Assembly: GCA_937135995.1 (NCBI GenBank)
Contig: CAKZOF010000721.1
Coordinates: forward strand, 1-19,046
Direction: 5' to 3'
Origin: an uncultured Pyrinomonas sp.
GTDB lineage: Bacteria; Acidobacteriota; Blastocatellia; Pyrinomonadales; Pyrinomonadaceae
DNA: 19,046 nt
Program-made: the position numbers and the translations under genes
Shown: piece by piece, positions 5,241-19,046 of the stretch
Layout: every line of letters begins with the position of its first letter
How positions within the stretch are numbered: the stretch's first letter is position 1
Notes under the pieces: generated by a model
Told to the model about the DNA's origin: nothing
The model's database searches: none
What the model saw: only the letters and a program-made list of their open reading frames with translations

Positions 5241-6113
5241 TCAGCGCGATGCCGTGTCGCCAGCCAAAAGGCTCGCTTCGCGTCCGATCTCACGCAGACG
5301 CTCGGGATCGATGCCGGTCTCGATTCCCAACTCCGCCATCATGCAAACGACCCTTTCGGTGGCCACGTTGCCGGGCGCGCCTGGCGTAAACGGACAGCCG
5401 CCCAAACCACCCACCGCCGCATCGAACACGGCGACGCCTGCCTCCATCGCCGCCTTGATGTTGTCGAGCGCCATGCCGGTGGTGTCGTGTAGATGCGCAG
5501 CAAAAGAGATGTGGGGCCACCGCGCGCGCGCTTCGGCAAAGAGGGCGCGCGTTCGGTCTGGCGTCGCCCGCCCCGTGGTATCGTTGAAAGAGATCTCGTC
5601 GGCTCCGGCAGAAATCATTTCGGCCGCGATATCGAGCGTGCGCGCCGCGGGTACTTCGCCCTCGTACGGGCAGACCCAAGCGACGCCGATCGAGCCGCGC
5701 ACTCGCACGCCGTCACGTTTGGCCCGCTCGATCACGCGGCACGCCAACTCCAACGCTTCGCGCAAGCCCATGTTGGCGTTGCGGCGGTTGATCGCTTCCG
5801 TGGCGGCGACCACGTAGCAGAGCCAATCGACCTGCGCGGCGAGCGCTCGCTGGTAGCCGCGTTCGTTCACCGTCAAGGCCATGTACTGCGTCGCGCCGTC
5901 GCGCGGCACACGCGCCATCAGCTCTTCAGCGTCGCTCATCTGCGGCACCCAACGCGGGCTGACGAAAGCCGTCGCTTCGATGCGCCGGATGCCAGCGTCG
6001 ATCAGACGCCGGATGAGCGCGAGCTTTTCTGTGGTGGGAACCAACCGCGCCACCGACTGCAAGCCGTCACGCAAAGCGACCTCGACGATCTGGACGCGAC
6101 GGACTCGATTCAA
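5241..6113 (-). CDS. Hydroxymethylglutaryl-CoA lyase family protein
   Basis: HMG-CoA lyase splits HMG-CoA into acetyl-CoA and acetoacetate. The 290-residue TIM-barrel protein has the complete active site: R15-D16 in ALRDGLQ, H207 and H209 in AAHLHDTTG, the catalytic cysteine C240 in GGLGGCPFTPGAPGNVATE, and N249. All are offset by 26 from the human enzyme's R41, D42, H233, H235, C266 and N275. The start is TTG at 6113, with GGGAGG 9 bases upstream; an upstream ATG is out of frame. It is the last gene of the minus-strand operon, 91 bases after the CoA-transferase gene. In this context it may cleave a different 3-hydroxy-3-methyl or similar acyl-CoA; the substrate is an inference. Confidence 0.9.
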   Translation of the reverse strand: MNRVRRVQIVEVALRDGLQSVARLVPTTEKLALIRRLIDAGIRRIEATAFVSPRWVPQMSDAEELMARVPRDGATQYMALTVNERGYQRALAAQVDWLCYVVAATEAINRRNANMGLREALELACRVIERAKRDGVRVRGSIGVAWVCPYEGEVPAARTLDIAAEMISAGADEISFNDTTGRATPDRTRALFAEARARWPHISFAAHLHDTTGMALDNIKAAMEAGVAVFDAAVGGLGGCPFTPGAPGNVATERVVCMMAELGIETGIDPERLREIGREASLLAGDTASR

Positions 6114-6204
6114 CTCTTCTTCCCTCCCCCTTTCATGCGCACAGCTTGCAAGAGCGCTCGCTCAAGACGAAGTTACCTGCTCGGCTGCGGGCCGAAATGC
6201 ATTC

Positions 6205-7419
6205 TCAAATGACGCCGGCCTCTTGCAACCGCCGCAGTTCGTCTTCGCTCATTCCGAGCAATCCGCGGTAGATCTCGTCGTTGTGCGCGCCGAGCGGCGG
6301 GCCCGGCCAATCCGTGCCCCCCGGCGTCGATGTCAGTTTCGGCACGACGCTCGGTATTTTGACCTTGTCTCCGTCGCCGAGATCCACTTCTTCGAACATG
6401 CCGCGCGCAATGTAGTGTTCGTCGCGCACGATGTCGGCGATCGAGTAGATCGGACCACATGGCACTTCCGCTTCGGTCAATCTCTGAAAGACTACCTCGT
6501 AAGGATGCCGGCTGGTCCATTCTTCGATGGCTCGGTCGATCATCTCTTCGTGCGCGACGCGGCCATCGTTGTGCGCCAGTCGAGGATCGTCGGCGAGATC
6601 TGGGCGCTCGATGGCGTTCATCAACCGCTTGAAAATCGAATCGCCGTTGCCGCCGATGACGATGTACTTGCCATCGGCGCAGCGGTAAGTCGAAGTCGGC
6701 ACGATCCCTTCGAGCTTCGGTCCGGTCCGCTCGCGCACGTAGCCGAGCTTGTCGTATTCGGCGAGCATGGATTCCATCATGTTGAAGACCGCTTCGTAGA
6801 TCGCGACATCGACCACCTGTCCTTGTCCTGTTCCGCGCACATCGCGGTGATAGATGGCGACGAGCGCGCCCAATGCGGCATGCAACCCGGCCAACGTGTC
6901 GCCGAGCGACACGCCGGTGCGCACCGGGGGGCGGTCCGGATAGCCGGTCGTGTAGCGTATTCCCCCCATCGCTTCGGCGACGTTGGCATACCCTGGACGG
7001 CTCGCATATGGTCCGGTCTGGCCCCATCCGGACACGCGCACCATGATGAGCCGCGGGTTGAGTTCGCGCAGCGCGTCGTACGACATGCCCCACCGCTCGA
7101 GCGTCCCTGGCTTGAAATTCTCAAGCAAGATATCGACTTTGGCCGCCAAACGGCGCGCGATCTGCTGCCCTTCGGGGCGCGTCAGGTCCAACGTGATCGA
7201 CTTTTTGTTTCGCCCGAGCGAAAGCCACCACAGCGAGGTTCCGCGGTAGATCTTGCGCCACGTGCGAATCGGGTCGCCCGTGCGCGGACGTTCGATCTTG
7301 ATCACCTCCGCGCCGAAACCGGCGAGCATCGCCGAGGCAAATGGTCCGGCGAGGAGCTGTCCCATCTCCAACACCTTGAGTCCCGCAAGCGGACGCTGTT
7401 GCACGCTCTGTCCGTTCAT
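6205..7419 (-). CDS. CaiB/BaiF family class III CoA-transferase
   Basis: The 404-residue protein has the family N-terminus (LAGLKVLEMGQLLAGPFASA, residues 11-30), then GAEVIKIERP, LGRNKKSITLDL and LLENFKPGTLERWG. The likely catalytic aspartate is D174 in TGVSLGDTLAGLHAA. Class III transferases move CoA between carboxylic acids through aspartyl anhydride and thioester intermediates. ATG at 7419 was chosen over an upstream frame extension to 7494, because the family begins close to the LAGLKVLEM motif and GGAG lies 7 bases before this ATG. It starts 4 bases after the stop of the isochorismatase-family gene, indicating tight coupling. With a lyase gene downstream, it probably activates a dicarboxylic or hydroxy acid before C-C cleavage. 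Confidence 0.93.
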   Translation of the reverse strand: MNGQSVQQRPLAGLKVLEMGQLLAGPFASAMLAGFGAEVIKIERPRTGDPIRTWRKIYRGTSLWWLSLGRNKKSITLDLTRPEGQQIARRLAAKVDILLENFKPGTLERWGMSYDALRELNPRLIMVRVSGWGQTGPYASRPGYANVAEAMGGIRYTTGYPDRPPVRTGVSLGDTLAGLHAALGALVAIYHRDVRGTGQGQVVDVAIYEAVFNMMESMLAEYDKLGYVRERTGPKLEGIVPTSTYRCADGKYIVIGGNGDSIFKRLMNAIERPDLADDPRLAHNDGRVAHEEMIDRAIEEWTSRHPYEVVFQRLTEAEVPCGPIYSIADIVRDEHYIARGMFEEVDLGDGDKVKIPSVVPKLTSTPGGTDWPGPPLGAHNDEIYRGLLGMSEDELRRLQEAGVI

Positions 7420-7423
7420 CTCC

Positions 7424-8083
7424 TCACTCCGATTGACCGCCTGGATCGCCGAACCGTGCAAGATAGTCCAACGCTTCGTCGAGCGAGACGACATCGCCGT
7501 ATTTCGCGTCGATGTCGAACAGATTCGCTTCGTGCGGCGCCGGCGCGCGATCGCCTACCGCTTCGCGCACGACGATGGCGCGAAAACCGTGCTGGCAAGC
7601 GTCTACTGCCGAGGCGCGCACGCACCCGGACGTGGTGCACCCGGTGATCAATAGAGTATCTACGCCCGCTGCCGTCAGAGTCGCGGCGAGCGCCGTGCCG
7701 AAGAACGCGCTCGCATACTTTTTGCACCACACACACTCGTTGGGCAGCGGCCGCAATCGCTCATCGATCTCCACGAGCGGGTCGCCTGCGCGCAACAGCC
7801 CCAGACTCGGCACCTTGCAGATGAAAAGTCCGGCGTCGGTGTGGCCTTCGACGTAGGCAGTGGTCGTAAAGTGAACGCCGATCTTCGCCGCACGCGCCCT
7901 GTCGAGCAGACGGCGTGTTGCTGCGATCACCTCTTCGAGATCGCAACTGAGCGGAGAACGCGGATCGGTGAAGGCGCGAATCAGATCGATGATGAGAAGC
8001 GCCGGACGCGCGCCAAATCCAACGCGGCCACGAAAACCGCGCTCGACATACAGGCGCACAAGATCCGTCTCTTGTCCGTCCAC
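7424..8083 (-). CDS. Isochorismatase-fold amidase, N-carbamoylsarcosine/maleamate amidohydrolase type
   Basis: The 219-residue protein shows the cysteine-hydrolase triad of this fold: D33 in LLIIDLIRAFTD, K121 in WCKKYASAFFGT and the nucleophile C154 in GCTTSGCVRASAVDA. The cis-peptide-associated region before the cysteine and the C-terminal APHEANLFDIDAKYGDVVS are characteristic of the N-carbamoylsarcosine amidase / maleamate amidohydrolase subgroup rather than of true isochorismatases. These enzymes hydrolyse linear amides or carbamoyl compounds and release ammonia. The start is GTG at 8083, preceded by AAGGGGG. It lies 59 bases after hyuB and 4 bases before the CoA-transferase. Inference: it removes ammonia from the opened ring product of HyuAB or the hydantoinase. 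Confidence 0.9.
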   Translation of the reverse strand: MDGQETDLVRLYVERGFRGRVGFGARPALLIIDLIRAFTDPRSPLSCDLEEVIAATRRLLDRARAAKIGVHFTTTAYVEGHTDAGLFICKVPSLGLLRAGDPLVEIDERLRPLPNECVWCKKYASAFFGTALAATLTAAGVDTLLITGCTTSGCVRASAVDACQHGFRAIVVREAVGDRAPAPHEANLFDIDAKYGDVVSLDEALDYLARFGDPGGQSE

Positions 8084-8142
8084 GCTCGCCCCCTTCGGTG
8101 CTGACGCTGGGCGACATAGTTTGTCCCCTGCCGGCCGCGTTT

Positions 8143-9975
8143 TTAGACGTGTGCCGGTTCATCACTTTGCGTCAGCGCCCGAGTGCTCCGCCATTCGCGC
8201 ACGACGCCGATCGGCTCTGGTTCAGGCCCGAAGGTGAAGATCGGCACATCGCCTCGCTCGCGCTTCTTGCGCGCGCGCTCGCTTTCGGTCCGTTGTTGAT
8301 CGACGGCGAGTCGGCCATCCTTCTCGACGATGATGACGCCGTAATCGCGCGCAGCCTTTTCGCGCGACACGAGCCCGTTGCGCACGTCCTTGAGCACCCA
8401 CTCCACAGGCCGGTCCAGCGGATCGCGCCATCCGCCGCCGCCCGCCGTTCGGTAGATAAGGATGTCTCCCTTGCGAACGGCAACTTGCGAAATCTTCGAG
8501 GGCAACGGTTCTGCTTTGCCATCGGCGCGCACCAGCAGCTTCGACGAAGACTGGCCCGGCAAGCCGCCCAGAATGCCCCACGGCTGCGACCGCTCGCGAT
8601 CGTCGTGAACAGCAATCTCGCCATCCACCTCGAAACGATAAACTTTGTGTACACCGTTGCCGCCGCGATGGTACCCGGCACCGCCTGAATCCGGCAAGCT
8701 GCCGTATTCGAGCACGGTGATCGGGTAGTAGCTCTCCAGATACTCGGTCGGGATGTTCTCGAAAAGCGGCCACCAAGAATGCGCATCCATGCCGTCGCCA
8801 AGCGGCCGCCCCGGAATGCCGCCGTAGGTGATCTCCATCAGGTGGAAGAATTCGCCGTTTTCGTCGTAGCCGTTGTAGAGCAGGTACGGTGACGTCCCGT
8901 AGCCAGCAGCGGTCGACAGTTCCGGCGCTTGCCGCCCCAGCGCCCCACCGAGAACGTCAAACAGACGCGCCAGCGCGTGCGTGCGGCAACCGAGCGCCGC
9001 CGGAAAGCGCGGCTGCAATAGACTCCCTTCGGGGATTTTGACTCTGAGCAAAGGATAGAAGCCATCGTTGAAGAGTATCTGCGGGTCGAAGACCATGATC
9101 AGATAGACGCCGATGAACATCTTGAACATCTCTTCGTTCAGGAGGAAGTTGATCGGACCGGGCGCTTGCGGATCGGTGCCGGTCCAGTCAAAATAGCCGA
9201 CGTTGCCTTCGCGCCAGATAGTCAACTTCATCTTGAACGGGCCGTTGCCGCGGCCATCGTCGTCTACGTAGTCTTCGAAGGAGACCGGTTCGGTCGGCAA
9301 GTTCTTTTCGATGAGCGCGCTCATCGCACGATAGGTGCGGTCGAGCAACGCTTCGCAGGCGGCCAGATAGGTCCGCTTGCCGAAACGGTCGCACAACTCG
9401 CGCACGCGCTTGTCGGCCGTGCGACAAGCGGCGACGATCGCCATCAGGTCGAAATAGTTCATCACGGGCACGCGCGTGTTGGTCAAGATCAGATCGAGCA
9501 CGTCCTCATTCAACTTGCCGCGATCGAAGAGCTTGACCGGCGGAATGCGCATCCCTTCGCCGAAGATGGTGGTCGCATCGGTCGGCAAGCTGCCCGAGAC
9601 GGGGCCGCCGACATCGACCGTGTGACCGAACTGCGACCCCCAGCCGACCAACTCACCGTCGTAAAAGATCGGCAACAGCACCATCCAATCGTTGATGTGC
9701 GAGATGGCACCCCGGCACGAGTACGGGTCAGAGACCAGAAAGACGTCGCCCTCGGCAATACCCCGTCTCCACTGCTGGATGAAACCGGCGATGTAAGAGC
9801 CGAACTGACCGACGACCATGCGTCCTTGCGGATCGCAGATCATCGGAAAGCCGTCGTGCTGCTCGCGGATCACCGGCGACATCGCTGAGCGAAAGAGCAC
9901 GGCATCCATCTCGTGGCGCGTGTTGCGCAGCGCGTTCTCGATGATGTCGAGCGTTATCTTGTCAAGATCGGCCAT
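8143..9975 (-). CDS. hyuB: HyuB-type subunit of ATP-dependent hydantoinase/oxoprolinase family
   Basis: The 610-residue protein is a hydantoinase B/oxoprolinase family subunit. It begins LDKITLDIIENALRNTRHEM and continues with DAVLFRSAMSPVIREQHDGF, VSDPYSCRGAISHINDW and QFGHTVDVGG, which hold likely metal ligands (D83, H93, D96, H118, D121). The usual spacing GGxHLxD is slightly altered to CRGAISHIND. Near the C-terminus are GGAGYHRGGNGVHKVYRFE and RTAGGGGWRDPLDRP, both typical. Family members open N-methylhydantoin, 5-oxoproline or caprolactam rings, or carboxylate ketones, together with HyuA. ATG at 9975 was preferred over GTG at 9987, which overlaps the hyuA stop as GTGA; MADLDKITLD matches the family start. 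The two genes are 8 bases apart. Confidence 0.95.
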   Translation of the reverse strand: MADLDKITLDIIENALRNTRHEMDAVLFRSAMSPVIREQHDGFPMICDPQGRMVVGQFGSYIAGFIQQWRRGIAEGDVFLVSDPYSCRGAISHINDWMVLLPIFYDGELVGWGSQFGHTVDVGGPVSGSLPTDATTIFGEGMRIPPVKLFDRGKLNEDVLDLILTNTRVPVMNYFDLMAIVAACRTADKRVRELCDRFGKRTYLAACEALLDRTYRAMSALIEKNLPTEPVSFEDYVDDDGRGNGPFKMKLTIWREGNVGYFDWTGTDPQAPGPINFLLNEEMFKMFIGVYLIMVFDPQILFNDGFYPLLRVKIPEGSLLQPRFPAALGCRTHALARLFDVLGGALGRQAPELSTAAGYGTSPYLLYNGYDENGEFFHLMEITYGGIPGRPLGDGMDAHSWWPLFENIPTEYLESYYPITVLEYGSLPDSGGAGYHRGGNGVHKVYRFEVDGEIAVHDDRERSQPWGILGGLPGQSSSKLLVRADGKAEPLPSKISQVAVRKGDILIYRTAGGGGWRDPLDRPVEWVLKDVRNGLVSREKAARDYGVIIVEKDGRLAVDQQRTESERARKKRERGDVPIFTFGPEPEPIGVVREWRSTRALTQSDEPAHV

Positions 9976-9983
9976 AACGCTTC

Positions 9984-12044
9984 TCACCGTCCTTTGCCGT
10001 CGGGATAGATCAGGATGTTGAGGTACTCATCGACCTGCCCGTAGTGTTCGGGCAAGATGACCGTGGTCGCATCGCGCTGCGTGATGACAGCCGGCCCGCG
10101 CACGATGTGCCCAGGACGTAACCGGTCGCGGTCGTAGATCGGCGTCTCCATCGCTTTGCCGCCGAAATAGGCGCGGTGCGTCTCCACCATCGCCTCTTCG
10201 AGACTCGTCCTGTCCGGCGCGACACGCTGCAATTCGACTTTGCGGACTAGACCGATGCCGACCACGCGTAAGTTGACGATCTCGATCAGCGAGTCGATGT
10301 TGAAGCCGTAATTTCTCTCGTGAATCTCTTTGAAGTCGGCTACGAACTTCTCTAAGCCCTCTTCGGACGCGAACTGCCGCGGGTGGACGCGCACCGGAAA
10401 TTCGTACCCTTGCCGGTGATAGCGCACATCTATCTGGTAATCCAGCGCCTGCCGTTCGGCAGGGATGCCTTCGCCCTCCAACCACCTGCGTGCCTGCTCA
10501 TCCAACGCGGCGAAGATTTGCGCGAATTCGCTCGCGTCAATGCGGTCGAGCGTGCGGATTACCGTCTGCGAAAACTCGTTGCGGATGTCCGAGTGGAGGA
10601 AGCCAAGCGCCGAGAGCACGCCCGGCGTCGGTGGAATGATCGCCGGCCACGCGCCCGAAAGTTGCGCCAAGGCGTTGGCATGAAGCGGGCCGGCACCGCC
10701 GAAAGCGACCAGCGCAAAATCGCGCGGATCGTAGCCGCGCTGCACCGAGACGAGCCGCAGCGCGCCGAACATGTTCTCGTTGACGATGTCAATGATCCCT
10801 TGGGCTGCCTCTTCAACTGACAGTCCGAGCGCGTCGCCGATTCTGGCCACGGCGCGGCGCGCCGCTTCGACGTCGAGCTGCATCTCGCCGCCGAGCAAGC
10901 GCGGCGGCAGGCGGCCCAGCACGACGTTGGCATCGGTCACGGTCGGCTCCGTTCCGCCTGCGCCGTAGGCAGCCGGCCCTGGTTCGGCCCCCGCTGATTG
11001 TGGACCGACGCGCAAAGCGCCCGTGATCGGCACGTGCGCGATGGAACCGCCGCCAGCGCCGACGCTGCGCACGTCCACCGCGGCGGCCTTGACCGGATAG
11101 TAACCGATACGCGTCTCGCGCACGATGCGCGGCTCGCCGCCCGTCGAAATCGCCACATCGGTGGAAGTGCCACCCATGTCAAAGGACAACACGTTCTTGT
11201 AACCGGCGAGTTCACCGATGTAACTGGCCGCGACCACGCCGCCCGAAGGGCCGGAGAGCAGCGTGTTGACGGGTTTCGCGCGCGCGCCATCGAGCGACAT
11301 CACGCCGCCGTCAGAACGAACGATGTTGACCGTCGGCGCAAGACGCGCGTCGTGCAACTTGCGCTCGATGCCGGTTAGATAACGGCTCATCACCGGCCGC
11401 ACGTATGAGTTCATCACAGTCGTCAGCGTCCGCTCGTACTCGCGAAACTCCGGCAAGATGTCGGTCGAGATAGTCACCGGCAGGTCCGGGCAGATCTCTT
11501 GAGCGATGTCGCGGATACGCCGTTCGTGAGCTGGATTGGCGAACGAGTTGATAAGCGACACGGTCAGGGCCTGAATTCCTTCATCACGCAGTTCGCAAAT
11601 CAACCGACGCACTTCTTCTTCGTCGAGCGGGACAAGTTCCTCGCCGCGCGCATTCATGCGCGCCGACACGCCGCGCGTGAGATGGAGCGGCGCGAGCGGA
11701 TCAGGCTTCTGCATGATGATCCAGCCAGCAAGCGGTCCCGGCGTCTGCGACCGCGCGACGTGCAGTATCTGCTCGAAACCGCGCGTCGTGATCAACCCGA
11801 CGCGCGCTCCCTTCTCTTCGAGCACAGCGTTGGTCGCCACTGTGGTTCCATGAAGCACCAGGTCTATCTCTGCTGGATCTATGCCGGCCAGCGCAGCGAC
11901 CTTCTCGATGCCGTTGAGCACGCCGATCGACTGATCCGCTGGCGTTGAAGGCACTTTGGCGAGCACCATGCGTCCGGTCTCCTCGTCGAAAAGGAGCAGA
12001 TCCGTGAACGTCCCGCCGACGTCGATGCCGAGTCTGTAACCCAT
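9984..12044 (-). CDS. hyuA: HyuA-type ATP-binding subunit of hydantoinase/oxoprolinase family
   Basis: The 686-residue protein has the acetate/sugar-kinase-like ATP site GYRLGIDVGGTFTDLLLFD (residues 2-20), HGTTVATNAVLE, the second nucleotide motif LLSGPSGGVVAAS (262-274) and SFDMGGTSTDVA (287-298). AFGGAGPLHANALA and the C-terminal domain RGPAVITQRDATTVILPEHY are also present. HyuA phosphorylates the amide or carbonyl oxygen of the substrate so that HyuB can open the ring or carboxylate it. ATG at 12044 was chosen because GGAGG lies 5 bases upstream; the in-frame TTG at 12056 would sit on that site. It follows the exported-protein gene by 30 bases. Substrate could be N-methylhydantoin, 5-oxoproline, a lactam or a ketone; the sequence does not decide. 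Confidence 0.95.
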   Translation of the reverse strand: MGYRLGIDVGGTFTDLLLFDEETGRMVLAKVPSTPADQSIGVLNGIEKVAALAGIDPAEIDLVLHGTTVATNAVLEEKGARVGLITTRGFEQILHVARSQTPGPLAGWIIMQKPDPLAPLHLTRGVSARMNARGEELVPLDEEEVRRLICELRDEGIQALTVSLINSFANPAHERRIRDIAQEICPDLPVTISTDILPEFREYERTLTTVMNSYVRPVMSRYLTGIERKLHDARLAPTVNIVRSDGGVMSLDGARAKPVNTLLSGPSGGVVAASYIGELAGYKNVLSFDMGGTSTDVAISTGGEPRIVRETRIGYYPVKAAAVDVRSVGAGGGSIAHVPITGALRVGPQSAGAEPGPAAYGAGGTEPTVTDANVVLGRLPPRLLGGEMQLDVEAARRAVARIGDALGLSVEEAAQGIIDIVNENMFGALRLVSVQRGYDPRDFALVAFGGAGPLHANALAQLSGAWPAIIPPTPGVLSALGFLHSDIRNEFSQTVIRTLDRIDASEFAQIFAALDEQARRWLEGEGIPAERQALDYQIDVRYHRQGYEFPVRVHPRQFASEEGLEKFVADFKEIHERNYGFNIDSLIEIVNLRVVGIGLVRKVELQRVAPDRTSLEEAMVETHRAYFGGKAMETPIYDRDRLRPGHIVRGPAVITQRDATTVILPEHYGQVDEYLNILIYPDGKGR

Positions 12045-12074
12045 CTTCTCCTCCAACTCGTTCGTTGTCAGCGC

Positions 12075-12842
12075 TCACCTGTCGGGCGGAGCGAACAACG
12101 CATCCGGCAGCGGCCGGTTGTATCGAACCTCTTCCCACCACACGTCGAAGAGCTTGTGCCCGGCGAAGATGAGCCGCACGTGACGCGCTTCCTTGACTCG
12201 GTCGCGCGCATCGTACGACCAGTAGATCCGTTCGTGATGCCCGAGCGGCGTATCGAATTCGACCTTGTGGATCAGGTGCGTCATACGGTCGATGGCAAAA
12301 TGCGTCGTGCGTCCTTCGACGTCGGTGATCGCCACCCGATACGCGGGCCGTCCCTCAACTTCGCCATCGGGCAACCGGTCGAGGCGAAAGCCGGGAGCAT
12401 CGGCAAAACGGATGATGCCGAAACCGAAATGGCGATCCAGTCGCAAGTAGTCGGCGATGGGACGCGCCGCCACGCTCAATTGCGACCAGGCTCGTTCTCC
12501 GTCAAAGCCTTCGCGAAAGAAGAGGTGCCCACCGCTCCACGCTTCCACCAACACCTTGCCGTTCGGCCGCCGGGCGCGTTGGCTCTCTTGCGGGATGACG
12601 CGCGCGATGCGCAAACGCTCGATCTCGATGGCCGGGCCACCATCGCGCGGGTAATAGACGGCGCGCCCGCAAAGTTCGAGCGTCTGCGGACGACGAAACG
12701 TTTCGCCACCATGCGCCGCAATCGTGCGCCGGATGATCTCCACCGCCGATGGCGCTCTCCACTGCGCAACGGCGGCGGCGCCAAGCAACGCAACCGCCGT
12801 GCACAGGGCCGCAGGGCATCTTTTGCGTCGCCATTTAGACAT
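12075..12842 (-). CDS. Exported LolA-like protein of unknown role, first gene of hyu operon
   Basis: The 255-residue product begins with a clear signal peptide (basic MSKWRRKR, then a hydrophobic core, cleavage likely after AAAVA near residue 26). It continues with AVEIIRRTIAAHGGE, a start seen in periplasmic LolA/LppX-like beta-proteins of the 'outer membrane lipoprotein-sorting' type, and later AYRVAITDVEGRTTHFAID and RVKEARHVRLI. No lipobox is visible at the cleavage site. ATG at 12842 was chosen because the promoter at 12870-12898 implies a transcript start near 12863, excluding the earlier start at 12908. No Shine-Dalgarno is visible. It is odd for an exported protein of this kind to lead a cytoplasmic catabolic operon; it might bind the substrate or be an unrelated passenger. 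Confidence 0.75.
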   Translation of the reverse strand: MSKWRRKRCPAALCTAVALLGAAAVAQWRAPSAVEIIRRTIAAHGGETFRRPQTLELCGRAVYYPRDGGPAIEIERLRIARVIPQESQRARRPNGKVLVEAWSGGHLFFREGFDGERAWSQLSVAARPIADYLRLDRHFGFGIIRFADAPGFRLDRLPDGEVEGRPAYRVAITDVEGRTTHFAIDRMTHLIHKVEFDTPLGHHERIYWSYDARDRVKEARHVRLIFAGHKLFDVWWEEVRYNRPLPDALFAPPDR

Positions 12843-12869
12843 AAATTTATGACAATTAAGACGCAGCAC

Positions 12870-12898
12870 AATATACTTTCCTCGCTTTTCTGTGTCAA
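12870..12898 (-). promoter_or_regulatory. Near-consensus sigma70 promoter for the minus-strand hyu operon
   Basis: On the minus strand TTGACA (12898-12893) and TATATT (12875-12870) are separated by exactly 17 bases. The -35 matches consensus perfectly and the -10 five of six. The expected transcript start is near 12863, about 20 bases before the ATG of the exported protein. The region is AT-rich compared with its surroundings. Confidence 0.8.
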
Positions 12899-12900
12899 GA

Positions 12901-12914
12901 TTTTTCACGAAAAA
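12901..12914. promoter_or_regulatory. Inverted repeat between divergent promoters, possible operator or UP element
   Basis: TTTTTC, two bases, then GAAAAA forms a perfect 6-base inverted repeat (TTTTTCACGAAAAA). It lies just upstream of the minus-strand -35 and 5 bases before the plus-strand -35, where a regulator or the RNA polymerase alpha subunit could act on both operons. Position and symmetry are seen; function is inferred. Confidence 0.4.
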
Positions 12915-12919
12915 GGTAC

Positions 12920-12948
12920 TAGACTTATGCTAAATTTCCGTGTATCAT
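12920..12948 (+). promoter_or_regulatory. Possible sigma70 promoter for the acyl-CoA synthetase operon
   Basis: TAGACT (12920-12925) and TATCAT (12943-12948) are separated by 17 bases, with four and five matches to consensus. Transcription would start near 12955, inside the 8-base palindrome GAACGTTC (12952-12959), leaving about 13 bases of leader before the ATG at 12968. It is weaker than the opposing promoter. Confidence 0.5.
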
Positions 12949-12967
12949 CCCGAACGTTCAAACGGTC

Positions 12968-14626
12968 ATGCGAGCCACGACGGCAATGACGCAAGCGACA
13001 ACCTCTCGGTCGTTCCTTTTCGGCGGGCTTTGCGGCGCCGGCGATCTCGTGCGACGCAACGCGCGCGTGCTCAGCAAAGCTGAAGCGCTGGTTTTCGGCG
13101 ACGTTCGCCTGACGTGGCGCGAGGTCAACGCGCGCGTCAATCGTTTCGCCCATGAGCTACGCCGGATCGGCATCGGCCGTGGCGACCGTGTTGCCCTCTA
13201 CGGGCGCAACTCGCACCAGTGGATCGAAGCGCTCTTCGCCGCGGCCAAGCTCGGGGCTGTCGCGGTCACGGTCAACCATCGTCTTGCGCTGCCCGAGATC
13301 GAGCACATCGTCGCCGATGCAGGCGTATGCGCTTTTGTCTGCGGCGCGGGAGAGAGCGAAGCAGCGCGCAGCATCGCCTCCAAAGCGCGCGACGTGCGGG
13401 CGATCGTCGTCATCGGTGGGGAGGCGAAGGATCTGGAAGATTACGAAGCGATGGTGGCGCGCGGCGACGAAAGCGAGCCAGTGCTGGACCAACCGATCAC
13501 GGCCGATGATCCGCTGTTGCTGCTCTACACGAGCGGGACCACAGGTTTTCCCAAGGGAGCGATCTACACGCACGCGAGCACGCTCATCGGCATGTTCGTC
13601 CACGTCCACGCCATCGGCAGTCGGCGTACGCACCGCGTGATGCTCCCTTCGCCGCTCTACTCTGCCGCTGGCATCGCCGGCATTTTCTGCGCCGTTTACG
13701 TCGGTTCTTTCATCGCGCTCATCAACTTCGATGTCGCAACGGCGCTCCGGACGATCGAACGCGAACGGATCACTTTCACCAATCTCGTGCCGACCACGAT
13801 TCAGCTCTTGTTGGAAGATCCGGCGAGCGAGCGGGCCGATCTTTCGTCCTTGCAAACGCTGCTTTACGGAGGCGCGCCAATGCCCGAACCGCTCGTGCGC
13901 CGAGCGATGCAGAGGCTGCCGCACTGCGGTTTTCGTCAGACCTTTGCCACCACCGAGACGGGCTGCGCGGGCACGGTGCTCGAACCAGCGGAACATCAGT
14001 TGGCGCTGAGCGCACCGCGCCATGCCAAGCTCCTTCGCTCGTGTGGGCGCGCGCAAGTCAACGTCGACGTGGCCGTCGTCGATGAAAGTTGGGGCGAACT
14101 CCCGCCGGGCGAGATCGGCGAGATCGCCGTCCGCACCGAAGCCAACATGGCCGGTTACTGGAACAACCGCGAGGCGACTGCGGCCGTGCTTCGTGACGGC
14201 TGGGTGCGCACGGGCGACATGGCCTACATGGACGAAGAGGGCTACTTCTATCTCGTCGACCGACGAAACGACATGATCGTGACGGGCGCGCTCAACGTCT
14301 ATCCGTCGGAAGTCGAGCGCGTGCTGCACAAACACCCGGCGGTGGCCGATTGTGCCGTCTTCGGTCTGCCCGATAGGAAATGGGGCGAGGCAGTGACGGC
14401 AGCCATCGTCCGGCGACCTGACGCCAAGGTGAGCGCCGAAGAGTTGATCGTTTTTTGCGATGGCAAAATCGCCAGCTTCAAGAAACCGAAACAGGTGCTG
14501 TTCGTCGAACAGATTCCGCGTACGCCGACCGGCAAGATCTTGCGCCGAGAACTGCGCGAGCGTTTCGCGCAAAACCGCGACAAAGCCGAACAGAAGAGGC
14601 TCCGCGACGCCCCGAACAAAGCGTGA
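12968..14626 (+). CDS. AMP-forming acyl-CoA synthetase (class I adenylate-forming family)
   Basis: The 552-residue protein has the ATP-binding P-loop LLYTSGTTGFPKGA (residues 185-198), the ATTETG motif (A5-type), GWVRTGDMAYMDEEGYFYLV and DRRNDMIVTGALNVYPSEVE (hinge and A8 loop), and the catalytic lysine in PRTPTGKILRREL. These enzymes activate a carboxylic acid to acyl-AMP and then acyl-CoA in the cytoplasm. Total length fits fatty or aromatic acyl-CoA ligases; the specificity is not readable. The ATG at 12968 and a second at 12986 (MTQATTSRS) are both possible, with no Shine-Dalgarno at either. It is the first gene of the plus-strand operon, divergent from the hyu operon and 68 bases before the amidohydrolase. 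Confidence 0.93.
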   Translation: MRATTAMTQATTSRSFLFGGLCGAGDLVRRNARVLSKAEALVFGDVRLTWREVNARVNRFAHELRRIGIGRGDRVALYGRNSHQWIEALFAAAKLGAVAVTVNHRLALPEIEHIVADAGVCAFVCGAGESEAARSIASKARDVRAIVVIGGEAKDLEDYEAMVARGDESEPVLDQPITADDPLLLLYTSGTTGFPKGAIYTHASTLIGMFVHVHAIGSRRTHRVMLPSPLYSAAGIAGIFCAVYVGSFIALINFDVATALRTIERERITFTNLVPTTIQLLLEDPASERADLSSLQTLLYGGAPMPEPLVRRAMQRLPHCGFRQTFATTETGCAGTVLEPAEHQLALSAPRHAKLLRSCGRAQVNVDVAVVDESWGELPPGEIGEIAVRTEANMAGYWNNREATAAVLRDGWVRTGDMAYMDEEGYFYLVDRRNDMIVTGALNVYPSEVERVLHKHPAVADCAVFGLPDRKWGEAVTAAIVRRPDAKVSAEELIVFCDGKIASFKKPKQVLFVEQIPRTPTGKILRRELRERFAQNRDKAEQKRLRDAPNKA

Positions 14627-14694
14627 CGCGCAGCGTCGAACGATGGCGTGCAACCGGCGAATCGCGCCCAGACACATGTTCTTCGCCGAACAAA

Positions 14695-15549
14695 ATGAAA
14701 ATGGATCGTGTCATCGACATCGTCGTCAACCTGTGGACCAAAGAGGTAACCCAAAACTATACGCCCGTGCTCGATGAGTTCTGGCGTTTGGTCAAGGTCG
14801 AGCAGCAAACGCACGAGGGCATCCCGCTCGCCGAACAGATTCGGCGCATGGATGCGGCGGGCATCGAGAAAGGACTGCTCGTCGCCACCACGGGCGGCGA
14901 GATCGGATCTTCGATCTTCTTCGAAAAACCAGCGGAACTGATCGCCGAAGTAGTCGCCCAACATCCGCAACGCTTCAAAGGCGTGATCGGCATCAACCCG
15001 TCGCGCATCATGATGTGGCTCGGCAAGCTGGAGCGCGCCGTGCGCGAACTCGGCTTCGTCGGCGCGCATCTTTACCCGCACTGGTTCAAGCGCCGCCCCG
15101 ACCACCGTATCTACTATCCGTTCTACGCCAAATGCGCCGAACTCGGCGTCCCCATTCAAATTCAAGTGGGCCACTCGGCGCAACGCTTCTTGCCGACGGT
15201 GGCCCATCCGATGACGCTCGACCGCATCGCTATAGACTTTCCCGAACTGAAGATCATCGGCATTCACATCGGCTACCCGTGGACCGAAGCCATGATCTCC
15301 GTCGCGTGGAAGCATCCGAATGTCTTCATCGGATCCGATGCCCACGCGCCACGTTACTGGGATCCATCCTTCGTCCGGTTCATCAACGGGCGCGGGCAGG
15401 ACAAAGTCCTGTTTGGCACGGACTGGCCGATCGTCGAGTTCGAGCGCGCCATGCGCGAGATCGAAGCGCTGGAACTGCGCGAAACGGCCAAGAGAAAGTT
15501 CTTGTTCGAAAACGCCGTGCGCGTCTATGGACTGGAAGCCTGGGTTTGA
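14695..15549 (+). CDS. COG2159 (amidohydrolase_2) TIM-barrel protein lacking the HxH motif
   Basis: The 284-residue protein resembles the ACMSD/amidohydrolase_2 family. It has GVIGINPSR, FVGAHLYPHWF, PIQIQVGHSAQRFLP (H160), LKIIGIHIGYPW (H191) and VLFGTDWPI (D243), then the usual KRKFLFENAVRVYGL end. Family members are metal-dependent hydrolases or decarboxylases whose first strand carries D-x-H-x-H. Here that strand reads VIDIVVNLWT, so both histidines are missing (V10 and N12), and activity may be altered or lost. The start could be ATG 14695 or 14701; neither has a Shine-Dalgarno. The frame is open far upstream, but that part overlaps the synthetase gene and is out-of-frame noise. It sits between the synthetase and a small gene in the same operon. 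Confidence 0.85.
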   Translation: MKMDRVIDIVVNLWTKEVTQNYTPVLDEFWRLVKVEQQTHEGIPLAEQIRRMDAAGIEKGLLVATTGGEIGSSIFFEKPAELIAEVVAQHPQRFKGVIGINPSRIMMWLGKLERAVRELGFVGAHLYPHWFKRRPDHRIYYPFYAKCAELGVPIQIQVGHSAQRFLPTVAHPMTLDRIAIDFPELKIIGIHIGYPWTEAMISVAWKHPNVFIGSDAHAPRYWDPSFVRFINGRGQDKVLFGTDWPIVEFERAMREIEALELRETAKRKFLFENAVRVYGLEAWV

Positions 15550-15589
15550 TGCCGCCCCGCTGACGCGCAGGCGAGAAAGGAGAACCACA

Positions 15590-15829
15590 ATGGACGCAAA
15601 TGCTCGCATCGCACAGTGGAAGGAAGAAGAGCGTCGCGCGCAGGCTGAGCGTTACGAACGGATCGTCGCGGCCATGGAAGCGCTCGCGCCGGAGCGCGAT
15701 CGCTGGGTCGAAGAGTTCTTCGAGCGCATTCAAACGCGCGGCTGGTCGTTTCACGCTGGGATGCGCCGGCGCATCCCGCGCGACCAAATCCCCGAACGCC
15801 CGAACCGCCCGTGGCGAGTCGTCTGGTGA
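15590..15829 (+). CDS. Small protein of unknown function (79 aa)
   Basis: A good Shine-Dalgarno (AAGGAG, 7 bases before ATG) supports this small gene, which sits between the amidohydrolase (40 bases) and the cupin gene (45 bases). The product is very charged. Residues 8-36 (AQWKEEERRAQAERYERIVA and on) look like an amphipathic helix. They are followed by a Trp- and Pro-rich tail with RGWSFHAGMRRRIPRDQIPE and ending WRVVW. There is no signal peptide, membrane segment or cysteine. I do not recognise a family. Its position in a catabolic operon suggests a small subunit or partner of a neighbouring enzyme; this is inference. Confidence 0.8.
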   Translation: MDANARIAQWKEEERRAQAERYERIVAAMEALAPERDRWVEEFFERIQTRGWSFHAGMRRRIPRDQIPERPNRPWRVVW

Positions 15830-15874
15830 CCGGGTGGTCCGGAGAGCTTCACATCGCAGAAAGGAGTGTGATTC

Positions 15875-16732
15875 ATGGCACGACCGCACATCGAACCGTT
15901 GGACGAATCGTGGGTCCCGTGGCGCAAGCTGGACCTGCCCGGCTTTCCGCGCGGCATAGAATACCGCACGCTTTCGTTTGACGACGACACAGGCGCCATC
16001 TCCGCAGTCGCAAAATTCGAGGCCGGTTACTCACAACCGCCCGGCTTCAGCCGGTCCAGCATGGAGATCGTCGTCATGGACGGTTACTTGAAAGTGGGCG
16101 ATCGGCGTTGCGGCTTCGGCTTCTACTTCTACGTGCCCGCGGGCGTCAGCCTGCCGCGCATCGAAACGCCGGAAGGCGCGCGCGTGTTGCTCTTCTACAA
16201 CGACAGCGAACCTTCGTTCGTCGAATCGGACGCGCACGCTGACGGGATCTCGCCAGACGCTCAACCGACCATCGTCGATAGCGTCTCCGATCTCTCTTGG
16301 AGCGAAACGCACCTGTTCCCGGCGACGGAGAAAGGCTGTCTGGTAAAGATCGTCCGCTGGGACGAGGAGACGCACGCGCTGTCGTTCTTCTACACGATGG
16401 TGCCTGGTTTCTGGCAAGACAACGTCTCGTACCACGACTGCATGGAAGAAGCCTATCACATCTACGGCACGTCGTGGATCATGCAGTTCGGTTACCTCGG
16501 CACGGGCGGCTATTTCTACCGGCCGCCATACATCGGGCACGGCCCGTTTGCATGCGAGCACGGTTGCCTCGCCTTCGGTCGCACCGACGGTGAACTCTAC
16601 AACCACTTCAACTGGAACCCATTCGCCACGCCTGAAGAGAACCATCGGCGGGCGGTCGAGAAGATGAAGAAACGTCGCCCGAACATGTTCACGTGGGAGT
16701 ACCGACGAAGCGACGAGATGTGGGTTCCATGA
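15875..16732 (+). CDS. Two-domain cupin protein (DUF4437-like), unknown function
   Basis: The 285-residue protein appears to have two cupin barrels. The first (about 28-110) includes SMEIVVMDGYLKVGDRRCGF and FYVPAGVSLPRI but lacks the usual histidines: PPGFSR replaces PxHxHx. The second (about 165-240) keeps candidate metal ligands in SYHDCMEEAYHIYG (H187, E191/E192) and RPPYIGHGPF (H222). The C-terminus is Trp- and charge-rich. Cupins of this type are metal enzymes or binding proteins in small-molecule catabolism; no reaction can be assigned. The Shine-Dalgarno AAGGAG lies 8 bases before ATG 15875. It is the last gene of the plus-strand operon, and no terminator is seen. Confidence 0.8.
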   Translation: MARPHIEPLDESWVPWRKLDLPGFPRGIEYRTLSFDDDTGAISAVAKFEAGYSQPPGFSRSSMEIVVMDGYLKVGDRRCGFGFYFYVPAGVSLPRIETPEGARVLLFYNDSEPSFVESDAHADGISPDAQPTIVDSVSDLSWSETHLFPATEKGCLVKIVRWDEETHALSFFYTMVPGFWQDNVSYHDCMEEAYHIYGTSWIMQFGYLGTGGYFYRPPYIGHGPFACEHGCLAFGRTDGELYNHFNWNPFATPEENHRRAVEKMKKRRPNMFTWEYRRSDEMWVP

Positions 16733-17164
16733 CAGGTCGGCAGATCACCAGTTGTTGCGCTGGCGGCGCGGCGAAACTGGCAGCTCCATGACGAATGGGC
16801 GGAACCGTGCGACGTTCGCGACGCGACCGACGACGATCTGCTTCGCCCCCAAACCACTCGGCGAGCGCGCGAGGCGGAATTGGGAGATTTCTTGCGCGAG
16901 GAGAAAGCTCGGCCGCAGTTAACGTAGATGGTAGCACTCAACCTTTTTCTCGCGTGCGCGAGGCGGAGAGGTTGTCGGCTTGCCACCTCGAGCGTTCGAT
17001 ATCTGGTAACGGGCGGAACTTTCCCGCGCGCGAGGGGAAAGGATCGAGCGGCAGATAGCGCGCCGAAACGAGCCTTCTCGCCGGAGGTGAACACTGCTCC
17101 TTGGGCTGGATGATATACTCTATAGTGCTTTCGAGCTGATTCCGTGTTCTGGCAAAGGGGAAAG
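16733..17164. other. Intergenic region with a recurring GCGCGAGG motif
   Basis: The 432 bases between the cupin stop and the regulator start hold no convincing gene; the few ORFs give repetitive arginine-rich translations. The 8-mer GCGCGAGG occurs four times (16867, 16894, 16956, 17028), usually followed by purine-rich bases. The part after 17100 holds the regulator's likely promoter. The remainder may be a decayed gene or long leader, and no terminator is obvious. Confidence 0.4.
17114..17119 (+). promoter_or_regulatory. Possible -10 element for the GntR-type regulator gene
   Basis: TATACT (five of six consensus) lies about 46 bases before the regulator's ATG at 17165, in the partly symmetric sequence TATACTCTATA. 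No good -35 is seen at 16-18 bases, so the promoter is weak or activator-dependent. The symmetry could also serve for autoregulation. Confidence 0.35.
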
Positions 17165-17968
17165 ATGGCTAAACTGAAGACAGCGTTCGTTAGCACACGC
17201 ATCCCGCTTTACTACCAACTGGAGAACTTGCTGCGCGAGAAGATCATCAGCGGTGCGTTCGCGCCCGGCGACCGTTTGCCCACCGAGAGCGAACTGATCC
17301 AGCAGTACAAGGTCAGTCGCATCACGGTGCGCCAAGCGCTGGCCGCGCTCGCCGAAGAAGGGTTGATCGAACGGCGGCAGGGGAAAGGGACTTTTGTCGC
17401 CGAACGGCGAACTCGCCGCCGGACGTTCGAGGGAACCATTCACCTGACGGGTTCGCTCGACGAACTGATCGAGATGGGTTTGGATACTGAAGTGAAACTG
17501 CTCGAGATGAATCGCGTCGAGGCCGACCGGCACGAAGCCGAGTTGCTTCAGATCGAGCCGGGCGAACCGGTTTACCGCCTCAAACGGCTGCGCTATCGCG
17601 AGGGCAAACCGGCCAGTCTGATCATCGGTTACTTGCCGGCGGAGATCGGCGCGCGTTTCACGCGCGAAGAACTGTCGAGCGGCGCGCTGTTGCAAAAGCT
17701 CGAAACCAAATTCGGCTTGCGCTTGCGCGACGCCAAGCAGCAGATCACGGCGGAGCTAGCCGATCCTTACGTGGCAAACCTGTTGGAAACGCGCGTCGGA
17801 GCACCGCTGCTCTCCATCGAGCGCACGGTTTACACGGATGAAGGCCGGCCCATCGAGTACGTTCACACGCTCTACCGAAGCGATCTGTTCAGCTACTCGG
17901 TCTATCTGACGCGCGATCCGGAAGTGCTGGCGAGGCAGCAGCGAAGGAACCTGACGCGTATCCGCTGA
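17165..17968 (+). CDS. GntR-family transcriptional regulator, HutC/UTRA type
   Basis: The 267-residue protein has an N-terminal winged helix (IPLYYQLENLLREKIISGAF, PGDRLPTESELIQQYKVSR, ITVRQALAALAEEGLIERRQ, GKGTFVA; residues about 13-79). A UTRA effector domain follows (about 90-262), with EPVYRLKRLRYREGKPASLI, VGAPLLSIERTVYTDEGRPI and a closing EYVHTLYRSDLFSYSV. HutC-type regulators usually repress catabolic operons and release DNA when a pathway metabolite binds. ATG at 17165 was chosen because AGGGGAAAG directly precedes it; the earlier GTG at 17144 lacks support. The hydantoinase gene follows 89 bases later, so this regulator probably controls it and possibly the divergent operons. Confidence 0.92.
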   Translation: MAKLKTAFVSTRIPLYYQLENLLREKIISGAFAPGDRLPTESELIQQYKVSRITVRQALAALAEEGLIERRQGKGTFVAERRTRRRTFEGTIHLTGSLDELIEMGLDTEVKLLEMNRVEADRHEAELLQIEPGEPVYRLKRLRYREGKPASLIIGYLPAEIGARFTREELSSGALLQKLETKFGLRLRDAKQQITAELADPYVANLLETRVGAPLLSIERTVYTDEGRPIEYVHTLYRSDLFSYSVYLTRDPEVLARQQRRNLTRIR

Positions 17969-18024
17969 CCCCGAGCTTGCCGCCGAGTGCCAGGCGAGCG
18001 CGCGCCGCGAAGACTACAGAACGA

Positions 18025-18040
18025 GGTGCCCGAGGGCACC
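18025..18040 (+). promoter_or_regulatory. Hairpin just upstream of the hydantoinase ribosome-binding site
   Basis: GGTGCC (18025-18030) pairs with GGCACC (18035-18040) around CGAG, ending 4 bases before the GGAGGA ribosome site (18045-18050). There is no T-run, so it is not a typical terminator. It may be an intercistronic RNA structure that stabilises the downstream message or a dyad operator. Structure seen, role inferred. Confidence 0.4.
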
Positions 18041-18057
18041 ACACGGAGGAAGGCGAA

Positions 18058-19046
18058 ATGCGCTACGATCTGCTCATCAAAGGCGGTACCGTTGTCTTCC
18101 CGCACCAAGGGACGTTCCGTTGCGACATCGGCGTGCGCGGCGGACGCATTGCTGCCATCGCCGATGAGATACCTTCTTTCGCTGCCGACCAGACGCTCGA
18201 CGCGCGCGGGCGATACGTCTTTCCCGGCGCGGTCGATTCGCATTTCCACGTCGGCATCTACCGCCCCCATTCGGAAGATGCCGAAAGCGAATCGCGTTCG
18301 GCGCTGGTCGGCGGTTGCAGCACCATTATCAGTTATTTCCGCACTGGGCACCACTACTTGAACCGGACCGGTCCCTATCGAACCATCTTTCCCGAACTGC
18401 TGGAGCTTTCGCGCGGCCACTTCCACACGGATTACGCCTATCACATCGCCATCATGACCGCCGACCAGCTCGACGAGGTCGCGTGGCTGGTGGAAGAGGC
18501 TGGCGTCATCTCCTTCAAGTTTTACATGTTCTACAAGGGGTTGAACCTCGCCGCCGATTCGACGCGCGGTAGCGACTACACGATGGCGGAGAATTACGAT
18601 CTCGGCCACCTCTACGAACTGATGACCCGCGTCGCCGAAATGGCGGCCAAGCATCGCCCGCGAGCGCGCATTTCGCTCTCGCTTCACTGCGAAAATCCCG
18701 AATTGATTCGCGTCTTCATCGAACGCGTCCGCCGGGCGGGATTGTCCGGACTGCGCGCCTACAGCGAAGCGCGCCCGCCGTTGACCGAACGCCTGTCGAT
18801 CTACGAGGCGGCCATTCTCGCCGACGCCACCGGTTGCCCCATCAATCTGCTCCATCTCTCGAGCCGCGAAGCGCTGCAGGCCGGGATCGAAGTGCAGCGT
18901 CAGTACCCGTCGCACGACATCAAGCTTGAAACCACGCTCCACCACCTGACGCTCACCTACGACACGGCCGACGGTGTGCGCGGCAAGGTCAATCCGCCGC
19001 TGCGGTCGGCATCCGATCTCGCTTTTCTGTGGGACGGCATTCAGCG
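18058..19046 (+). CDS. Hydantoinase/dihydropyrimidinase-like cyclic amidohydrolase, C-terminus missing
   Basis: The open frame from ATG 18058 to the window edge gives 329 residues of what is usually about 460. It opens with DLLIKGGTVVFPH and has the metal-binding HxH in PGAVDSHFHV (H62, H64). SFKFYMFYKG carries the likely carboxylated lysine (K154), followed by SLHCEN (H210), LLHLSS (H266) and GKVNPPLRS. This pattern fits the hydantoinase/dihydropyrimidinase/allantoinase branch of the amidohydrolase superfamily, which opens cyclic ureides or imides in the cytoplasm. The spacing SLHCEN replaces the usual xHAEN, and a cysteine precedes the glutamate. A good Shine-Dalgarno (GGAGGA) precedes the ATG. 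It lies 89 bases after the regulator. The exact substrate is unknown. Confidence 0.88.
   Translation, partial: MRYDLLIKGGTVVFPHQGTFRCDIGVRGGRIAAIADEIPSFAADQTLDARGRYVFPGAVDSHFHVGIYRPHSEDAESESRSALVGGCSTIISYFRTGHHYLNRTGPYRTIFPELLELSRGHFHTDYAYHIAIMTADQLDEVAWLVEEAGVISFKFYMFYKGLNLAADSTRGSDYTMAENYDLGHLYELMTRVAEMAAKHRPRARISLSLHCENPELIRVFIERVRRAGLSGLRAYSEARPPLTERLSIYEAAILADATGCPINLLHLSSREALQAGIEVQRQYPSHDIKLETTLHHLTLTYDTADGVRGKVNPPLRSASDLAFLWDGIQ

Follow-up and report, generated by a model that had tools for sequence, protein, structure and literature searches.

The window analysed here, the entire 19,046 nt contig C721 (G000:C721; CAKZOF010000721.1) of the 3.45 Mb draft genome of an uncultured Pyrinomonas sp. 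(Acidobacteriota), contains a linked set of genes that looks like a previously undescribed pathway for opening a nitrogen-containing ring, stripping its nitrogen and splitting the acid that is left. Comparison across genomes established the gene content, linkage and co-occurrence of this set, as well as the replacement of two of its enzymes, a class III CoA-transferase (CaiB) and a 3-hydroxy-3-methylglutaryl (HMG)-CoA-lyase-type aldolase (HMGL), by unrelated lyases. The evidence points to a route from an imide through a malate to an oxoacid rather than to a creatinine-like ureide route, and the module is placed as a variant of known cyclic-amide catabolism. The genes form two facing runs. The minus-strand run is HyuA-HyuB-CSH-CaiB-HMGL, with a conserved protein (DUFx) ahead of HyuA; the plus-strand run is AMP ligase-AHY2-small protein-bicupin-GntR/UTRA-hydantoinase:

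5241–6113, minus strand: HMG-CoA-lyase-type aldolase (HMGL), from profile search, with catalytic residues kept
6205–7419, minus strand: class III CoA-transferase (CaiB), PF02515, likely start at 7419
7424–8083, minus strand: isochorismatase-fold amidase of the N-carbamoylsarcosine-amidase/maleamate-amidase family (CSH), PF00857
8143–9987, minus strand: HyuB, subunit of the ATP-dependent ring-opening hydrolase, PF02538
9984–12056, minus strand: HyuA, subunit of the same hydrolase, PF05378/PF01968/PF19278
12075–12908, minus strand: conserved protein DUFx, without a Pfam match
12968–14626, plus strand: AMP-forming acyl-CoA synthetase, PF00501/PF13193
14695–15549, plus strand: amidohydrolase-2 protein of the ACMSD/LigJ fold (AHY2), PF04909
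15590–15829, plus strand: small conserved protein of 79 aa, directly upstream of the bicupin
15875–16732, plus strand: DUF4437 bicupin (CUP), from profile search
17144–17968, plus strand: GntR/UTRA transcriptional regulator, from profile search
18058–19046, plus strand: hydantoinase/dihydropyrimidinase-like metal hydrolase, from profile search, cut by the contig end

The right edge of the window falls inside the hydantoinase-like gene, and the right end of the island is therefore unseen; the other genes look intact. All families named in the first-pass annotation of this DNA (HyuAB, hydantoinase-like enzyme, amidase, CoA-transferase, HMGL, AMP ligase and regulator) were recovered by profile search. 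Its gene list left out AHY2, the 79-aa protein, the bicupin and the protein at 12075–12908, and the truncation of the hydantoinase-like gene went unremarked. A regulator of the HutC type had been named; a UTRA/GntR regulator is indeed present, but it scores higher to PhnF (135.9 bits) than to HutC (127.9 bits), both below cut-off.

HMGL, CSH and CaiB of the minus-strand run retain the expected residues. HMGL scored 334 bits against NCBIfam NF004283 (cut-off 246). In the alignments, to which overlapping loci contribute some genes more than once, the R, D, H, H and N positions of HMGL were kept in all 25 rows, window included, and the catalytic Cys in 24 of 25; the relative at locus L109 (genome G309) carries Thr at the expected Cys position. 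Beside the metal site, SLGDT of the human enzyme is changed to SFNDT in the window. Likewise, D, K and C of CSH were kept in 29/29 rows and the CaiB Asp, surrounded by a GDTLAG motif, in 22/22, the window included in both; the aligned positions of all three enzymes, including this Asp, are those presumed to be catalytic. CSH belongs to the N-carbamoylsarcosine-amidase family by its match to N-carbamoylsarcosine amidohydrolase 26st (232 bits), compared with 139 bits to 3ot4/3uao, of which 3uao is presumably a maleamate amidase. The nearest solved structure to HyuA is the N-methylhydantoinase 7hk5 (511 bits), and the best NCBIfam match of the HyuAB-type ring opener was caprolactamase, below its cut-off.

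The HMGL shares its family and catalytic residues with the HMG-CoA lyase of leucine catabolism, and its occurrence follows the cluster. In nine genomes searched at E ≤ 1e-25, HMGL was single-copy and inside the cluster in seven, the window's genome among them; G303 has two copies, both inside its cluster, one of them beside LeuC/LeuD-like genes; and in the genus mate G086, which is without the cluster, HMGL was not found. HMGL was thus found only in the cluster in 8/8 positive genomes, and it is not a leftover of leucine catabolism.

The hydantoinase/allantoinase-like protein scored best against PRK06189 in NCBIfam (147.8 bits, cut-off 631), with no Pfam model above its cut-off; full-length relatives of the gene exist in other genomes. 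The second cupin domain of the bicupin keeps its invariant His/Glu. Several bicupin relatives have a His-rich C-terminal tail that the window copy is without, and the small conserved protein precedes the bicupin in the window (15590–16732) and in relatives. DUFx was present in 6 of the 24 genomes compared, window included. AHY2 has an ACMSD-type fold, which is that of decarboxylases and the LigJ hydratase, and its nearest relative, 93 % identical, is from a Pyrinomonas sp. Its HxH metal motif is absent and VxN stands in its place: the second His is Asn in 51/51 rows (the window and 50 relatives) and the first is Val in 50/51 and Thr in L041, in a sample partly selected for the altered motif, one of the two peptide patterns used having contained it. 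The subfamily (window 14695–15549, L017–L063, L066, L067 and L075) is large and has gained AHxYPHW and DAHx motifs; its near tier keeps QVGHS, and the farther tier mostly has QVGQS.

Genes of both halves lie on one contig in five other Acidobacteriota (G243, G302, G300, G063 and G298). The whole cluster, all eleven genes, spans 20.2 kb in G243, and in G302 it lies within 25.6 kb. In G243, G302 and G300 hyuA is placed towards AHY2 and hyuB towards CaiB-HMGL, a further link between the two halves. In a random sample of the phylum the cupin occurred in 6/297 genomes and HyuB (E ≤ 1e-150) in 9/297, with all six cupin genomes among the nine (hypergeometric p 9e-11). Among the genomes counted are that of the window and G204, the latter with a weak cupin match (26 %); with both removed by hand, 4/4 cupin genomes fall among 7 HyuB genomes of 295 (~1e-7). 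A random sample of the class of the gammaproteobacterium G310 behaved likewise (cupin 3/274, HyuB 5/274, all three within the five; p 3e-6), and in G555 cupin and HyuB share a single contig.

The GTDB species collection was also scanned with the AHY2 alignment; 214 relatives were confirmed and 80 kept. Of these 80, 15 were at least 66 % identical, two of them (L019 and L025) being the contigs already known from G063 and G243. HyuB was matched (E ≤ 1e-60) in 20/20 AHY2-bearing genomes and at clade level (54–100 % identity) in 19/20; AHY2 was the criterion for choosing these 20, joined in two cases by the cupin, and among the loci of the scan the HyuB search covered those at least 66 % identical. 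The other AHY2 loci, many about 50 % identical, combine AHY2 with an AMP ligase and, at many, a CSH-type amidase, an acyl-CoA dehydrogenase or an NMT1-type transporter; in the proteobacterial loci L030–L063 (AHY2 ~50 %) these combinations of dehydrogenase, ligase, amidase and NMT1-type ABC transporter vary. HyuAB at L034, L042, L043 and L058 is 29–40 % identical and outside the clade. The recurrence of the same genes together in other genomes means that chance does not explain the cluster, and the two halves are very likely one system. The first-pass annotation had proposed one linked catabolic system, to be abandoned if its operons proved independent; the neighbourhood comparison contradicts that independence.

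At L100 (G298) and L107 (G307) two HyuAB pairs, with HyuB 79–80 % and 59–60 % identical to that of the window, flank one CSH-CaiB-HMGL set, which suggests that two ring substrates may feed one pathway there. The HyuB paralogs G298:C473 and G307:C105 have one or two in-frame TAG stops, and the LeuC matches G132:C55 and G243:C222 one or two in-frame TGA stops; these may represent pseudogenes or frame artefacts.

On plasmids the HyuAB core is also found by itself. A tblastn search with HyuB returned 42 plasmid records, of which 20 were 50–62 % identical and the next at most 37 %, a clean gap. All 20 clade records were compared with reference proteins, and 10 of the 22 more distant ones, taken from among those with annotation, served as controls. 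Diacid-processing genes adjoin HyuAB in many of the clade loci. A C-C lyase of any type was near HyuB in 16/20 (HMGL 6, LeuA-like 3, isocitrate-lyase type 9) and in none of the 10 controls (Fisher p 3e-5). CSH was nearby in 12/20, CaiB in 10/20 and LeuC/LeuD in 7/20, again with 0/10 among the controls for each.

Gene order differs among these loci, and so does the lyase. Geobacillus Y412MC52 has CSH-HyuA-HyuB-CaiB-HMGL, then an insertion sequence, then LeuC-LeuD; Acidiphilium has LeuC-LeuD, a transporter, GntR, HMGL and CaiB-HyuA-HyuB-CSH. Two Haladaptatus and Haloterrigena have CSH, CaiB and a LeuA-like enzyme in place of HMGL. In Natronomonas pharaonis, Halorientalis and two Natronorubrum, HyuA-HyuB-CSH and one gene of the isocitrate-lyase/phosphoenolpyruvate-mutase family stand in a row, neither CaiB nor HMGL being in reach; the Halorientalis row is followed by a formamidase-family gene. 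In five of eight Novosphingobium records HyuAB adjoins an isocitrate-lyase-type lyase, and the stretch contains LeuC, LeuD or both but no CSH, and HMGL and CaiB are present in PP1Y and capsulatum. All nine isocitrate-lyase-type proteins carry K-[KR]-C-G-H, which we take to be the mark of C-C lyases in the isocitrate lyase superfamily; the one profiled scored 230 bits to PrpB (cut-off 354). According to one study, the Cys is the catalytic acid of isocitrate lyase, and 2,3-dimethylmalate lyase is cited as a member of the superfamily (PMC7609661). In a HyuB tree the 43 clade members separate from the 10 controls (100/99), and the type of lyase switches several times (isocitrate-lyase type at least three changes, LeuA-like two). 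A step downstream of HyuAB is thus refilled by unrelated lyases sharing one chemistry, the cleavage of a β-hydroxy diacid with or without CoA. Together with the LeuCD-type hydratases, this refilling provides the chief reason to prefer diacid (imide) over amino-acid (ureide) chemistry.

From these patterns we infer the order of the steps, the imide class of the substrate, the products and what the second half does. Taking the core in its usual gene order, HyuAB would use ATP to open a cyclic amide, the CSH-family amidase would take off the remaining amide nitrogen and CaiB would load CoA onto the resulting dicarboxylate. The HMGL-type lyase would then perform a retro-aldol cleavage of the β-hydroxyacyl-CoA to a 2-oxoacid or ketone and a short acyl-CoA. 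The best-fitting substrates would be malimides or maleimides, the cyclic imides of alkylmalates and alkylmaleates, with the C=C bond hydrated where needed by a hydratase of the LeuCD type or of another kind. In the second half, the acyl-CoA ligase, divergent AHY2, bicupin with its small neighbour, hydantoinase-like enzyme and GntR would most likely prepare the ring or a side chain upstream. That the island is dedicated to a cyclic imide in this order, with the second half upstream, is judged to be slightly better than an even chance. The conversion of a cyclic amide or imide to a diacid followed by CoA transfer and C-C cleavage had been anticipated in the first-pass annotation, and the LeuCD and isocitrate-lyase-type neighbours of the HyuB clade lend it support. 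Its author was largely right, and the interpretation as a whole is partly supported.

Several findings weigh against the imide pathway. The closer match of CSH to N-carbamoylsarcosine amidase and the N-methylhydantoinase as best solved relative of HyuA would also fit a ureide. The window holds no LeuCD or isocitrate-lyase-type gene; the single LeuC copy of its genome is presumably for leucine synthesis, and a second LeuCD as the hydratase was not supported. G299 has the cupin and AHY2 (L020) with a HyuB of only 36 %. In the stretches fetched, only CSH was seen near HyuB in G204 and only HyuAB of the core in G218, G234 and G311, with no CaiB or HMGL near HyuB in any of the four; some of the stretches stop at contig ends, and an absence in those carries little weight. 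Among the 20 plasmid loci, L118, L120, L124 and L130 have no lyase in reach, CSH was not found in 8 and CaiB not in 10. The distance between LeuC and HyuB is about 9 kb in the Novosphingobium near-copies L132, L134 and L135, and several long branches were flagged by the tree tool.

A ureide (hydantoin-type) pathway would cast HyuAB as an N-methylhydantoinase and CSH as an N-carbamoyl-amino-acid amidase releasing an amino acid, the CoA-transferase and lyase processing the deaminated skeleton. Besides the best matches of HyuA and CSH, the membership of the hydantoinase-like gene in the cluster speaks for it, as do an FAD amine-oxidase-like protein (identified by eye) near the cluster in three genomes and a class V aminotransferase near it in one. 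However, no amino-acid-oxidising or transaminating family is among the named families common to at least 4 of the 24 genomes compared, four haloarchaeal loci run from CSH directly to a C-C lyase of the hydroxy-diacid type with no deaminating gene between, and LeuCD-type hydratases beside the module fit diacids; this pathway is rather unlikely. The known degradation of creatinine and N-methylhydantoin has the same HyuAB and CSH families side by side and ends at sarcosine, an amino acid, with neither CoA enzymes nor a C-C lyase. Here, in contrast, the usual neighbour of the clade HyuAB is a C-C lyase, either HMGL with a CoA-transferase or the isocitrate-lyase type, sometimes joined by LeuCD. Cyclic-imide metabolism, in which an imidase and a half-amidase yield a dicarboxylate, is similar in opening the ring to a half-amide and then a diacid, and in having a gene of the imidase/hydantoinase superfamily; the cluster differs in relying centrally on the ATP-dependent HyuAB and in having its own dedicated genes for C-C cleavage. 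The CSH family includes both amidase types, half-amidase and CSHase, and the window copy scores higher to the latter. Nicotinate fermentation ends with dimethylmaleate hydratase and 2,3-dimethylmalate lyase, recalling the LeuCD-type hydratase and isocitrate-lyase-type lyase near the clade HyuAB in Novosphingobium; here, however, the diacid would come from HyuAB and the amidase, and the lyase of the window is of the CoA-dependent HMGL type.

Alternatively, the CoA and lyase genes could process a propionate-like side chain that the AMP ligase has activated, much as ferulate catabolism employs a ligase, hydratase, aldolase and aldehyde dehydrogenase, while HyuAB, CSH and the hydantoinase treat the ring separately. 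The ligase adjoins AHY2 in many loci, 10 of the 24 genomes contain aldehyde dehydrogenases, and AHY2 shares its fold with decarboxylases and the LigJ hydratase. Against this, on the Geobacillus, Acidiphilium, Haloterrigena and two Haladaptatus plasmids CaiB lies together with HyuAB-CSH and with either HMGL or the LeuA-like enzyme, and the five stretches shown have neither an acyl-CoA ligase nor AHY2 annotated, an argument countered in turn by an acyl-CoA synthetase in the Novosphingobium capsulatum stretch. Such a division of labour is improbable, a little more so than the ureide pathway. A coincidental neighbourhood of unrelated known pathways (leucine-catabolism HMGL, xenobiotic amidases) gains from each family being common on its own. 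It is already contradicted by gene order and co-occurrence conserved across phyla, by the confinement of HMGL to the cluster and by distant HyuB loci being without these neighbours, and is scarcely credible. Indole-3-acetate catabolism was also considered as a model; its anaerobic pathway (iaa) uses HyuAB-like genes. According to two studies, the aerobic pathway (iad) employs a Rieske oxygenase, an acyl-CoA synthase and a thiolase, and 2-aminobenzoyl-CoA is reached through iaa; their main text mentions neither ‘hydantoin’ nor ‘lyase’ (PMC12633357, PMC9613470). The likeness of iad to the cluster is the acyl-CoA synthase, the proteins profile-searched here included no Rieske or mutase family, and the model was rejected as a different route. 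None among the matches listed in the open-licence PMC literature describes the cluster itself, which is weak evidence of absence.

The island is flanked on its left by MurI, an HD hydrolase and a TonB-C protein. This flank matches G086 in parts at 72–74 %, and HyuB, cupin and HMGL were not matched there at the thresholds used; the island therefore looks like accessory DNA beside core genes. An IS200/IS605-type element occupies 3–1464, where a Y1 transposase (PF01797) is overlapped by a TnpB-like frame (identified by eye) that runs to the contig end and matched no Pfam model at 1e-3. The regions upstream of the AMP ligase and gntR contain weak palindromes only, with no shared operator-like element.

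Several other families are found beside clusters. CpeT/CpcT-like proteins are present in eight copies in six genomes, one of them Pfam-checked, and DUF3598, DUF1838, SnoaL and VOC proteins recur at the same places (G243, L017, L021, L024, L028 and L101–L103). TonB-dependent receptors are seen beside acidobacterial clusters. Molybdopterin oxidoreductases, by eye of the dimethyl sulfoxide (DMSO)-reductase type, lie inside clusters at L020:10951-14509, L029:3782-7393, L023 and L028, in two of these loci with a TorD-like chaperone.

The CpeT-like, DUF3598 and TonB neighbours allow a guess as to the natural substrate. The module could be the missing route by which alkyl maleimides and malimides, oxidation fragments of chlorophyll, haem and bilins, enter central metabolism, the lyase giving pyruvate or 2-oxobutyrate and an acyl(-CoA); this is doubtful, and considered less probable than either the ureide or the side-chain alternative. 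HyuAB would open the imide and CSH remove ammonia, followed by a hydratase and a CoA-dependent or CoA-free lyase, while the CpeT/CpcT-like and DUF3598 proteins and TonB-dependent receptors would handle linear tetrapyrroles.

If the imide pathway is correct, a portable module for ring opening, deamidation and C-C cleavage would be common to Acidobacteriota, Proteobacteria, Bacillota and haloarchaea and, in part, an actinobacterial plasmid. The filling of one step by unrelated lyases would provide a handle on its chemistry from genomes alone, and would point to a short list of testable substrates, the alkylated cyclic imides. It would also give a function to many genes named only hydantoinase B, isochorismatase or CoA transferase, as well as to a large subfamily of amidohydrolases in which the metal site has been rebuilt.

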